Assembly: GCF_015732285.1 (NCBI RefSeq)
Contig: NZ_WIQU01000045.1
Coordinates: 1-43,556 of the forward strand
Reading direction: 5' to 3'
DNA length: 43,556 nt
Source: Pectinatus frisingensis
Lineage (GTDB): Bacteria > Bacillota > Negativicutes > Selenomonadales > Selenomonadaceae
Shown: in pieces, positions 2,409-32,189 of the stretch
Layout of the letters: each line of letters begins with the position of its first letter
How positions within the stretch are numbered: position 1 is the first letter of the stretch
The notes under the pieces: model-generated
What the model saw: only the letters and a program-made list of their open reading frames with translations
Database searches by the model: none
Told to the model about the DNA's origin: nothing
Program-made: the position numbers and the translations under genes

Positions 2409-3830
2409 TCAAGCTGCCATTTCATCATTTTCAGCGCCTGCATTTTTCATAGCCTGTTTTTGTAAGTAATCATTTATCTTACTATTATTCTTTCTAAATA
2501 ATAGCCACAAAACAAAATATACGCCTGTTGCTATTCCGATAAACAAAGGATTAGCTGTAAGAAAAGCTAAAAATACTAATCCAATTAACGGTTTACCCAA
2601 AATATTAAAACTTGTTATAAGTAAAGCTCCGGCAGGAATAGCAACTCCCACCCCCACTGCCATGTCAGTAAATAATGGTGCTGTATAAGTACATACATAA
2701 AGTCCTAACCCAAACCAAATAGTTCCTGATATCAATATTTTAGCAATATTTCCATTATGCACAGCAACAAGTCCCTGAACCATATATGGCAGTGCCAATA
2801 AATCCACCACAGGCAGAACACTATTTCCCGGCAGGATCATCGCTACTACAAGCATTATCGGTATAAGAAGCAAACCGGAAATAAGTGTTGCCGGTTCACC
2901 ATAACCAACAGCATCATTCACAGCAATATACCACTCCCTATTGCCGCTTTTTTTCATAAATACACGTGCTGCTTCCGTAATCGGAGCAAATGCCTGTGCA
3001 AACATACTGGCAATTTTAGGGAAAATGGCCATAATTGCACTTGTTGCAATAGCAACTTTTAAAATCTGTCCCCATGCAGCCATAGTAAAAATATCATGTA
3101 TATTCCCTAGTATTCCAATGAAAGCTCCCAAAAAAAGCCCTAATGTCATTGGTTCACCTAAAAACCCAAATTTTTGCTGTAAATACGCCGGATTTAACTT
3201 CACTTTGTTCAATCCCAGCATATTATATATAGGATCTGCCACTACTGCAAAGATTGATGCTTCGACATTGTGCATCGCAATAATAGTACAATTAGGATAT
3301 TTATAATAAGTGGACCATCTTTTCGCCACTAGTTCAGAAATAAGTAATGAATATAAATTCAAAAGAACCATACATGCTATTCCCAATACAAAATTACCGG
3401 TAACACCTATCACCATTGCGCCCCAAACCATATAAGAATAGTTATTCCATAAGTCTGATGGTTGAAAAATATTTGTCCATTTGACAAGGAACAATATCGT
3501 CTGAAGTGCTATGCCCAATCCTAAATAAATCATTCCGGCAGTAGTAGAAAAGCCTACCAATGCCGTTGCCTGCCAGCCAACATCAAATACCGGAAGATGT
3601 ATTCCCGATGAATTAACCATTTGATTTATCACCGGAGTGATAATTGGTGTAAAGGAATTTAATATAAGTGTAAATCCTTGTAAACCTACACCAGCATAAA
3701 CAGCTGATAAAAATGATTTCTGTGTTGTAACTTTAAATATTCTGGCAATGACAAAAATAATTATTGGCACAATAATGGCAGGACCAAAATTATCAATAAT
3801 AGTTTTCATCATAATCAATATTGAATCCAT
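2409..3830 (-). CDS. PTS system galactitol-type EIIC permease (GatC family)
   Basis: Integral membrane component that moves the sugar alcohol across the cytoplasmic membrane for phosphorylation by EIIB. The 473 residues are largely hydrophobic with roughly ten to twelve membrane segments. The N-terminal IIDNFGPAIIVPIIIF stretch and the motifs GLGIALQTILFLVKW and NDAVGYGEPATLISG are typical of the GatC/SgcC family. The ATG at 3830 follows AAGGAGG. It is encoded right after the IIB gene and a 25-codon ORF. Substrate is probably a pentitol or hexitol; the downstream epimerase and dehydrogenase favour a pentitol. Confidence 0.92.
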   Translation of the reverse strand: MDSILIMMKTIIDNFGPAIIVPIIIFVIARIFKVTTQKSFLSAVYAGVGLQGFTLILNSFTPIITPVINQMVNSSGIHLPVFDVGWQATALVGFSTTAGMIYLGLGIALQTILFLVKWTNIFQPSDLWNNYSYMVWGAMVIGVTGNFVLGIACMVLLNLYSLLISELVAKRWSTYYKYPNCTIIAMHNVEASIFAVVADPIYNMLGLNKVKLNPAYLQQKFGFLGEPMTLGLFLGAFIGILGNIHDIFTMAAWGQILKVAIATSAIMAIFPKIASMFAQAFAPITEAARVFMKKSGNREWYIAVNDAVGYGEPATLISGLLLIPIMLVVAMILPGNSVLPVVDLLALPYMVQGLVAVHNGNIAKILISGTIWFGLGLYVCTYTAPLFTDMAVGVGVAIPAGALLITSFNILGKPLIGLVFLAFLTANPLFIGIATGVYFVLWLLFRKNNSKINDYLQKQAMKNAGAENDEMAA

Positions 3831-17471: not shown

Positions 17472-17960
17472 ATGTGGGATAAACTATTTTCAACTATTTC
17501 ACATGTCACTCTGCATGACGGTAAATTAAGTACATATACTATTAAAGATATTCCCAGTGATATGTACACTCACATTTTACCCCTTCTGCCCGCGGCATTA
17601 AAAAGTTCAGGTATAACAACTAATTTCATGAACAAACAATATCGCATTACCTCTACTTATTCTCACGATGGCGGCATTACAAAATTGTATATAAAAATGA
17701 AAAACCCCGCATGGGCAGAAGCCCATCTCATGACTTGCGGATACAGCCGCACTAATCACAAAATATTTCAAACTATACTCAATAACCGAATGGGAGAAAA
17801 ACAGACTGTTATACCACCTGCCCTACCCTATCTTGTCAGTAATGTAGAACCAGGTATAATAATGGATAAAGAGTGCCTGACCTGGCTTTCGCCTTTTGCC
17901 CGCTGCATTGCTTGGGCCGCACTCGATCCACAAAATTATATGTTATTTATGAAACAGTAG
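17472..17960 (+). CDS. Protein of unknown function (162 residues)
   Basis: I do not recognise a family. The protein is predicted cytoplasmic with a hydrophobic C-terminal stretch (LSPFARCIAWAALDPQNYMLF) that is too short and polar to be a sure membrane segment. AGGAG lies ten bases before the ATG. It follows the 101-residue gene closely in the same direction and is followed by copy B of the dispersed element. The two genes stand alone on the plus strand among minus-strand genes. Confidence 0.6.
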   Translation: MWDKLFSTISHVTLHDGKLSTYTIKDIPSDMYTHILPLLPAALKSSGITTNFMNKQYRITSTYSHDGGITKLYIKMKNPAWAEAHLMTCGYSRTNHKIFQTILNNRMGEKQTVIPPALPYLVSNVEPGIIMDKECLTWLSPFARCIAWAALDPQNYMLFMKQ

Positions 17961-17990
17961 TATGAATCACATGCCGGCCTTGTAAATATA

Positions 17991-18132
17991 AAAGTGGCTG
18001 CCACCCATAAACATTTTCATTCATAAATATGCTCTTTCGCCATTCTTGTCTCCATTTAAAAGCACAAGGAACTGTATCGGCCGGAGTGGAGTATCTTTAT
18101 GAAGTCAGTGTCATTCGTGTGACAGCCTTTTT
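17991..18132 (+). repeat. Dispersed structured element, copy B
   Basis: Second copy, between convergent genes. The closing stem pairs GGCTGCCAC (17996-18004) with GTGACAGCC (18119-18127) with one C-A mismatch, followed by TTTTT. Shared blocks are ATTTTCATTCATAAAT (18013-18028) and TATCTTTATGA (18092-18102). The internal hairpin pairs TTCTTGT (18043-18049) with ACAAGGAA (18064-18071). Its 3' end reaches the end of the minus-strand zinc-ribbon gene and may terminate the plus-strand transcript. Confidence 0.6.
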
Positions 18133-18133
18133 A

Positions 18134-18424
18134 TTATTTATCTTTCTTTATATATGTACCAATTTTATAAATACTTATCCGCCTGCATTCATCATTATGG
18201 CACGTACACTTTAATACACTATATGGCCCAATGTTGGCATCCCGGCTTACAACCACATCACCCTCATCGAACGGTGTTCCACACAATGGACACTGCCCAA
18301 TAAATTCATTTACCAATGGAGTAAAATATTTATAATAATTTGTATGTTTACAACCAGCACAAGGATAAGTATATTTAGGATAAGCTTTATATTTGCATTT
18401 ATCGCAAATAAGAAATTCACTCAC
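18134..18424 (-). CDS. Small zinc-ribbon protein of unknown function
   Basis: About 96 residues with three cysteine pairs: CDKCKYK and CAGCKH form one ribbon, CPLCGTP pairs with the later CTCHNDEC. This is the layout of a double zinc-ribbon protein that may bind nucleic acid or a protein partner. An ATG at 18436 is directly next to AAGGAG, too close to be used, so I choose the GTG at 18424. It is encoded just downstream of MqnA on the same strand. No further function can be read. Confidence 0.6.
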   Translation of the reverse strand: MSEFLICDKCKYKAYPKYTYPCAGCKHTNYYKYFTPLVNEFIGQCPLCGTPFDEGDVVVSRDANIGPYSVLKCTCHNDECRRISIYKIGTYIKKDK

Positions 18425-18462
18425 GCTACACTTCATCTCCTTTTAACGCATGACAATCTTTT

Positions 18463-31927: not shown

Positions 31928-31938
31928 ATTTATAAATA

Positions 31939-32090
31939 CGGGGTTTTTGCACATATTCATTTTCATTCATAAATACGCAATATCTCACTTGTTTCCCCGC
32001 CTTCAGAAGAGTGGGAAAACACATAGCAGTGAAGGGTTGCATCTTTATGAGGTCAATGCTGTTCATGCAATGGCCTCGTATTATTTTTTT
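31939..32090 (+). repeat. Dispersed structured element, copy C
   Basis: Third copy, 11 bases after the hemL stop. The closing stem pairs CGGGGTTTTTGCA (31939-31951) with TGCAATGGCCTCG (32066-32078), using several G-U pairs and one mismatch. The internal hairpin pairs TGTTTCCC with GGGAAAACA. Its 3' strand can instead form a hairpin at 32049-32077 (GAGGTCA/TGGCCTC plus TGC/GCA) followed by TATTATTTTTTT, a good intrinsic terminator. The two folds exclude each other. Confidence 0.62.
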
Positions 32091-32111
32091 GTCTATTATT
32101 TTAGAAATTTT

Positions 32112-32159
32112 ATTTCATTTATGTTTTTAAAAAATAACAATTTTAAAAATAAATGAAAT
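32112..32159. terminator. Long AT-rich inverted repeat upstream of nanE
   Basis: ATTTCATTTATGTTTTTAAA (from 32112) pairs with TTTTAAAAATAAATGAAAT (32141-32159), with a single bulged G. T-tracts follow. It separates the tetrapyrrole genes from the amino-sugar operon. Confidence 0.55.
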
Positions 32160-32189
32160 TTTATTGCTTATTTTTTTAATTCATGTTAT

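Follow-up and report, generated by a model that had tools for sequence, protein, structure and literature searches.

The window, i.e., the whole 43,556-nt stretch of DNA analysed here, contains three copies of a dispersed element of approximately 150 letters. The initial annotation had placed copies at 2253-2391, 17991-18132 and 31939-32090; all three are real, and their extents in our covariance model are close to these coordinates. Copy 3 stands in tandem context, with a gene for a HemL-like class-III aminotransferase upstream, whose stop codon is located 6 nt before the element, and a NanE-family epimerase gene downstream (neighbours assigned by Pfam; the name HemL is taken from annotated tblastn matches). 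Copy 2 is flanked by two convergent ORFs, 17472-17960 (+) and 18134-18436 (−), both without a Pfam match. Copy 1 lies between an EIIC-GAT gene (2409-3830, −) and an Fe-ADH family gene (862-2235, −), antisense to both and with the next ORF start 11 nt away. The copies and the parts of copy 3 are as follows.

2247 to 2396, + strand: copy 1 (covariance model, 95.6 bits)
17988 to 18134, + strand: copy 2 (covariance model, 105.8 bits)
31934 to 32082, + strand: copy 3, whole element (covariance model R1, 126.7 bits, E 8e-25)
31940 to 31953, + strand: copy 3, left arm of the outer (terminator-like) stem, predicted to pair with the right arm
31958 to 31973, + strand: copy 3, conserved core block CATTTTCATTCATAAA (block conservation 0.90 over 131 copies)
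31984 to 32036, + strand: copy 3, variable inner hairpin (predicted fold; conservation 0.61)
32041 to 32058, + strand: copy 3, right core block ATCTTTATGAGGTCAATG, pairing with the left block (predicted fold; conservation 0.83)
32064 to 32077, + strand: copy 3, right arm of the outer stem (sequence and predicted fold)
32078 to 32091, + strand: copy 3, T-rich tract after the outer stem (sequence)

Between copy 3 and the NanE-family gene, a long AT-rich inverted repeat (AAATTTTATTTCATTTATG ... ATAAATGAAATTTTATT) is found at window positions 32104-32170, which is possibly an operator of the NanE-family operon.

The element is one long imperfect hairpin, in which an A-tract is followed by a 14-bp GC-rich stem (GGGGCTGTCGCACG), a near-invariant AT-rich core, a variable inner hairpin, the complementary arm and a T-tract. 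Its consensus reads AAAAAA-GGGGCTGTCGCACGT-AANCATTTTCATTCATAAATATGCAATATT-(inner hairpin)-GGATTGCATCTTTATGAGGTCAATG-CTGTTCRTGCGACAGCCCC-TTTTT and is predicted to form a single hairpin at −73 kcal/mol (z −9.9). For the 131 individual copies, folding z averages −5.2 and −5.1 on the two strands and is below −2 in 92% and 86%, respectively. The + strands of copies 3, 2 and 1 fold at −49.4 kcal/mol (z −5.3), −39.7 kcal/mol (z −3.6) and −31.5 kcal/mol (z −2.8); in the prediction for copy 1 the outer stem is kept, but the core not in full. The − strand of this copy, which is the transcribed one, folds at −40.9 kcal/mol (z −4.4). Indeed, the strand called + in the initial annotation is not privileged, and either strand can be transcribed. 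The two sequence blocks named there as shared are exact in copy 3, whereas copy 2 has an exact left block with ATCTTTATGAAGTCA on the right and copy 1 carries variants of both. Mean conservation over the 131 copies is highest in the left (0.90) and right (0.83) core blocks, lower in the outer arms (0.69 and 0.72) and lowest in the inner hairpin (0.61; alignment columns 50-104), which is partly or wholly lost in shortened copies. The copies are old. Median identity to the nearest neighbour is 74% in the genome containing the window (G000) and 70% in a congener, G004; the consensuses of both genomes are near-identical except for the inner part.

The expectation that many copies exist genome-wide held. 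With copy 3 as BLAST query, 42 matches were obtained in its own genome; 37 of the 42 aligned copies went into alignment A1, on which the covariance model was built. At E ≤ 0.01, the model gave 127 matches in the 2.92-Mb genome G000; 32 of these represent the opposite strand of one and the same near-palindromic place, which leaves 95 places, counted by hand (a partial BLAST copy, C19:437, is absent from the model's list). Applied to 41 genomes (G000 and 40 relatives, E ≤ 0.001), the model gave 51 matches at 48 places in G004, a single 49-nt match in the congener G001 and one match in G018, but none in the congeners G002 and G003 nor in the other 35 genomes. The set analysed below comprises 83 copies from G000, 12 of the 95 places having been left out, and the 48 from G004. 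Nothing in the window reached the gathering score of an Rfam family; for six further loci searched at E ≤ 1, three miRNA-model matches were found, all in locus L199 and all below gathering. Copy 3, as the sole query, had no match in plasmid and phage collections (blastn, E 1e-5), and a gapped exact pattern was absent from named genomes and viral contigs. A 20-mer of the core was likewise absent from viral contigs and matched once in each of three unrelated organisms among the named genomes, which we judge to be chance. A literature search by title found nothing describing the long-hairpin family, and the accessible parts of ncRNA discovery papers do not mention it.

Gene contexts were assigned with a simple ORF caller, and 129 of the 131 copies were classifiable, with one convergent label (the nifH junction of G000) being wrong. 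Convergent genes surround 62 copies, 29 are in ++ tandem, 36 in −− tandem and only two are divergent; in the background (20 sampled 20-kb stretches, two genomes), convergent regions account for 14% of the gaps and 18% of the intergenic nucleotides, and divergent ones for 14% and 24%. Not one of the 131 copies lies inside any ORF longer than 350 nt. A stop codon is found within 30 nt of 89 copies and within 60 nt of 108, so the copies stand downstream of genes and not upstream only, as terminators do. Both stops are within 40 nt in 38 of the 62 convergent copies, leaving little space for any second terminator. On the other hand, 25 of 65 tandem copies are located at most 60 nt from the next predicted start, some in likely operons, and these count against a terminator, since a strong one would be harmful in an operon.

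Covariation, already suspected in the initial annotation, was confirmed for the outer stem by several tests, the tree-based one excepted. Using a tree-simulated null, no pair fell below E 0.5; we judge this null to be inflated by unresolved deep branches, and the diagonal-window, contrast and slide controls were added after it. The top 16 of 8515 eight-pair covariation windows all fall on the outer-stem diagonal, and the best single pair scores 58, a value that 30 permutations of the columns never brought above 28. In 65 disjoint nearest-neighbour contrasts over outer-stem pairs 7-20, both sides changed 119 times versus 89.6 expected (none of 2000 permutations reached 119), and compensatory changes, with canonical pairs before and after, amounted to 79 versus 11-21 in slid controls. 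A counting tool applied to A1 found 113 cells changed on both sides; shuffling gave 67.7 ± 7.5 and sliding 33-52. Complementarity extends to the base immediately flanking the stem in 26 of 39 copies (14 expected).

A pairing that serves an RNA should tolerate G·T over A·C solely on the strand that is transcribed. In ++ copies, G·T and A·C stand at 64:35 for pairs 7-20; the corresponding ratio is 32:75 in −− copies and 82:81 where the genes converge. The direction is alike in G000 and G004 taken separately (pairs 4-20), and none of 10000 label permutations reached the observed difference for these pairs. Both GC-type pairs (50:25 in ++ vs. 25:56 in −−) and AT-type pairs (12:4 vs. 3:11) contribute, but one mixed pair (19-133) shows no context effect (2:6 vs. 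4:8). The clear bias emerged only once copies were split by gene context; pooled over the whole structure in 37 copies, G·T and A·C were counted 239 and 178 times. A general G+T bias of coding strands looks too small to account for the asymmetry, as G+T makes up a fraction of 0.511 across 137 tandem 3′ regions and of 0.515 at fourfold sites. Nevertheless, six unpaired columns beside the stem have a G+T skew similar to that of the stem and, given also the lack of effect at pair 19-133, the wobble may in part be due to strand-biased mutation. Folding energy follows the transcribed strand as well: of the 65 tandem copies, 50 have their lower MFE on this strand (p 3e-5), and 42 have their lower z there after correction by shuffling (p 5e-4).

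The tracts beside the stem were compared between contexts, too. An earlier unweighted count of T-tracts and A-tracts was not significant (p 0.14 and p 0.36), after which a weighted U-tract score with finer groups was devised. This score is 0.67 in convergent copies, 0.60 in tandem copies with a distant next start, 0.55 in those near a start and 0.54 for antisense; three tandem copies with the next start 61-100 nt away stand outside both tandem groups. Convergent copies differ from antisense (p 9e-6) and from near-start copies (p 0.003); the difference between near and distant starts is not significant (p 0.10), and that between tandem sense and antisense is borderline (p 0.07). A GC-rich stem with a U-tract on the transcribed strand is therefore a property of the family, but not of every copy, as the transcribed strand of copy 1 lacks a U-tract (tail AAAAACATG).

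The outer stem is not confined to the element. As a simple short hairpin (loop 3-33), it is found in 38 of 101 genomes of the bacterial family and 21 of 30 genera, the reversed control pattern in one. These simple GGCTGYCGCA hairpins share the outer stem with the element, some of them including flanking A- and T-tracts, but are without its long upper hairpin and core. Three whose flanks were read, all in G001, have both tracts; they (L194:1501-1534, L195:1501-1534 and L080:1501-1549) carry similar AT-rich loops (e.g., CACATATTTAT) and may form a separate small repeat family. Our original model matches 14 of 189 genomes, G000 and G004 included, and most of the matches read in other genera are hairpins of 76-139 nt in which this outer stem carries a different upper part. 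In genus g40, hairpins of 137-139 nt (L196:1501-1637, L198:1501-1639, L207:1501-1639) have the same outer stem and another core (AAATATGCAAAA ... TTGCATATTTATTT), the one in L196 folding at −84 kcal/mol with 12-nt flanks. A second model, built from eight hairpins of other genera, has matches in 83 of 189 genomes and 24 of 30 genera, and many of the listed matches are simple forms of 45-55 nt. The high-copy element of this genus thus seems to have arisen by expansion on a terminator-like stem that is found across the bacterial family.

Orthologous junctions lacking the element were inspected by eye, and unrelated terminator-like hairpins were seen at nine of 13. At the copy 1 junction one is present in G001, but none in G002 or G003. 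The copy 2 junction is element-free in G001-G004, with other terminator-like hairpins in G001, G002 and G003, and with no hairpin and a 17-nt gap between the aligned flanks in G004. For copy 3, such hairpins are found in G001, G002 and G003, not in G004, and for two further copies they occupy both element-free G004 junctions. A long near-perfect palindrome of unrelated sequence (L244:5920-5985) was noticed at a G004 junction which holds the element in G000; there may be other long palindromic terminator-like families in the genus.

Six junctions are syntenic between G000 and the stretches retrieved from G004, with the element in both genomes at three and not at the other three; this ratio is biased towards sharing, as the three shared junctions were fetched as element-bearing, one other was chosen and the two unselected ones are element-free. 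An earlier count by flanking proteins had given two shared junctions. Copies at shared junctions are not clearly more alike than others (ranks 9, 48 and 12 of 48). Relative to the genes, whose families were assigned by Pfam, the element is flipped at the purH-like/purD and the nifH/P-II gene junctions and not flipped at the third (PRD regulator/HAD hydrolase), suggesting that the copies arrived independently at favoured slots or were inverted inside them. At the nifH-family/P-II-family junction the copies (L136:1518-1655, +, and L045:1511-1640, −) lie in opposite orientations in G000 and G004, with flanking proteins 93-94% identical. The copies of the purH-like/purD junction (L013:1556-1705, −, and L145:1538-1684, −) are near the purD ORF start; the purH-like ORF of 197 aa contains an MGS domain and the first part only of an AICARFT domain.

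Two known routes of mobility were considered. A REP/RAYT system was rejected, because Y1 transposases do not follow the element: Y1_Tnp is present in all five congeners (one, partial, in G000, four in G004, three in G001, three in G002 and two in G003). Terminal repeats of a transposon were rejected as the sole account of the stem, given the simple hairpin in much of the family and the missing direct repeats. A search around 39 copies for flush direct repeats of 2-14 nt gave no consistent one; the copies may be too old for a target-site duplication to remain.

In our reading, the element is probably a dispersed long-hairpin 3′-end element which acts mainly as a bidirectional intrinsic transcription terminator and is leaky inside operons. 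Read from either side, it would present a hairpin made of an A-tract, a 14-bp GC-rich stem and a U-tract, the “loop” being a further hairpin of approximately 110 nt instead of the short loop of a terminator. RNA polymerase leaving a gene would transcribe the element, the outer stem would close behind the polymerase and the U-tract would release the transcript; the long hairpin might also shield the 3′ end of the mRNA. Copies in probable operons (window copy 1, purH-purD, nifH-P-II gene) would be leaky, serving as 3′-end stabilisers or partial terminators. The element was probably once mobile, and its copies would have spread by insertion, or been recruited, into terminator positions and then been kept by selection on pairing of the transcribed strand. 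The data show directly the location at gene ends, the covarying outer stem, the dependence of wobble and folding energy on the transcribed strand, the simple hairpins with this stem elsewhere in the family and the unrelated hairpins at most element-free junctions read; actual termination, 3′-end protection, mobility with its route and the role of the core are inferred. A terminator does not require the near-invariant core, which counts against this reading; the core is probably a protein-binding site or a mark of the mobilising machinery.

The strongest competitor, although we regard it as unlikely, is an ERIC-like non-autonomous mobile palindrome (MITE) without host function, which inserts between genes, survives best downstream of them and resembles a terminator as a by-product limiting harm. 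Its mobility step is common to the terminator reading, so that the probabilities of the two overlap. Like a MITE, the element is short, has terminal inverted repeats and many copies, and is without a conserved ORF. It is patchy in the genus (95 and 48 copies in two species vs. 0-1 in three other congeners), its median pairwise identity is low (64% in G000, 57% in G004), and SPRITE and ERIC, as described in the parts available, set precedents. Thus, the MITE-like repeat proposed in the initial annotation is partly upheld: past mobility is suggested by the distribution and by the reversed orientation of the element at two of the three shared junctions, but neither a target-site duplication nor a transposon ending in these sequences was seen. 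Seven exact GGCTGTCGCA sites of G000 outside the listed copies form no inverted pair on one contig (exact sites only). Further, neutral decay predicts neither compensatory changes in independent contrasts nor wobble following the transcribed strand, nor a core conserved at 0.90 amid 0.61-0.72 elsewhere.

Somewhat less credible still is an mRNA 3′-end stabiliser or RNase-processing site instead of a terminator. The copies probably situated within operons (nifH-P-II gene, purH-purD and window copy 1) and their U-tract score, which is lower near the next start than in convergent copies, would fit such a role, as would the altered transcript levels caused by ERIC insertions in Yersinia, according to the parts available of the publications (PMC2267715, PMC10969869). 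However, the best U-tract scores belong to convergent copies, where both strands need an end, and element-free relatives have other terminator-like hairpins at most of the junctions read.

A function at the level of DNA, i.e., a palindrome forming a cruciform or serving as an uptake or segregation signal, appears very improbable. The element is near-symmetric and its wobble is balanced in convergent copies, but there is no evident reason why a DNA function should follow the transcribed strand in tandem copies. Uptake signals are abundant, whereas exact GGCTGTCGCA, a 10-mer, is rare, with 19 sites in G000 and few in each congener.

Least likely of all is a stand-alone structured ncRNA or protein-binding RNA family, which the many copies and the near-invariant core within a structured RNA would suit; it was rejected, as orientation to the neighbours is inconsistent (29 ++, 36 −−), and no Rfam match reached the gathering score. 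Of the new structured RNA family postulated in the initial annotation, the many-copy repeat with conserved, covarying structure and without an Rfam match survives, but a discrete 140-nt ncRNA is unsupported, since most copies closely follow a stop codon, whichever way they are oriented, and their pairing is better kept on the transcribed strand. A conserved peptide, against which the annotation had already argued, was rejected as well: both anchors could be located in 70 of the 131 copies, and in these the distance between the blocks, modulo 3, is mixed (0, 1 and 2 in 17, 23 and 30 copies); 41 have one or more of the six frames open, but any single frame is open in at most 23.

Within the terminator reading, it is conceivable, if improbable, that the core inside the hairpin is the receptor of a trans-acting factor (an RNA-binding protein, a ligand or an RNase) which opens or strengthens termination. 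If this were true, some 95 gene ends would share one switchable terminator, and a mobile, regulated, genome-wide system of 3′-end control would stand in place of ordinary terminators. The near-invariance of the core makes this idea of a regulated shared terminator directly testable. The family offers a natural example of a repeat occupying terminator positions genome-wide, with a signature of selection on RNA readable from sequence only. The wobble and folding-energy test is applicable to any intergenic palindromic repeat, in order to distinguish junk from a working 3′ end.

Known systems were compared by their descriptions in those parts of the publications that were available. Inverted DNA uptake sequences form terminators in Neisseria and relatives (PMC3049150, PMC2267715); there, as here, one stem sequence is reused in many terminator-like hairpins, but the element's exact 10-mer is rare per congener and a long upper hairpin is included. 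ERIC, at approximately 127 nt, is likewise predicted to be a single long stem-loop, is mostly intergenic and has tens to hundreds of copies, but occurs in another taxon and is not described as a terminator in the parts available (PMC2267715, PMC10969869). SPRITE, a pneumococcal repeat with 30 copies, consists of an 18-bp duplex followed by a U-rich tract and is less tightly folded than BOX or RUP (PMC3049150). By its description, it shares with our element the dispersed occurrence, the AAAA/TTTT ends, the terminator-like stem, the enrichment between convergent genes and near gene 3′ ends, and the high frequency in one species plus a close relative; in both cases, a target duplication could not be established and no similar IS ends were seen, which for our element refers to exact stem ends (for SPRITE, PMC3049150). 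The element departs from that description in several respects: it occupies 95 places, its outer stem of 14 bp closes over another long hairpin, it has a near-invariant core, it shows covariation and a wobble that follows the strand, and its stem recurs in simple hairpins throughout the bacterial family. Set beside the element in this way, SPRITE and ERIC are its closest precedents.
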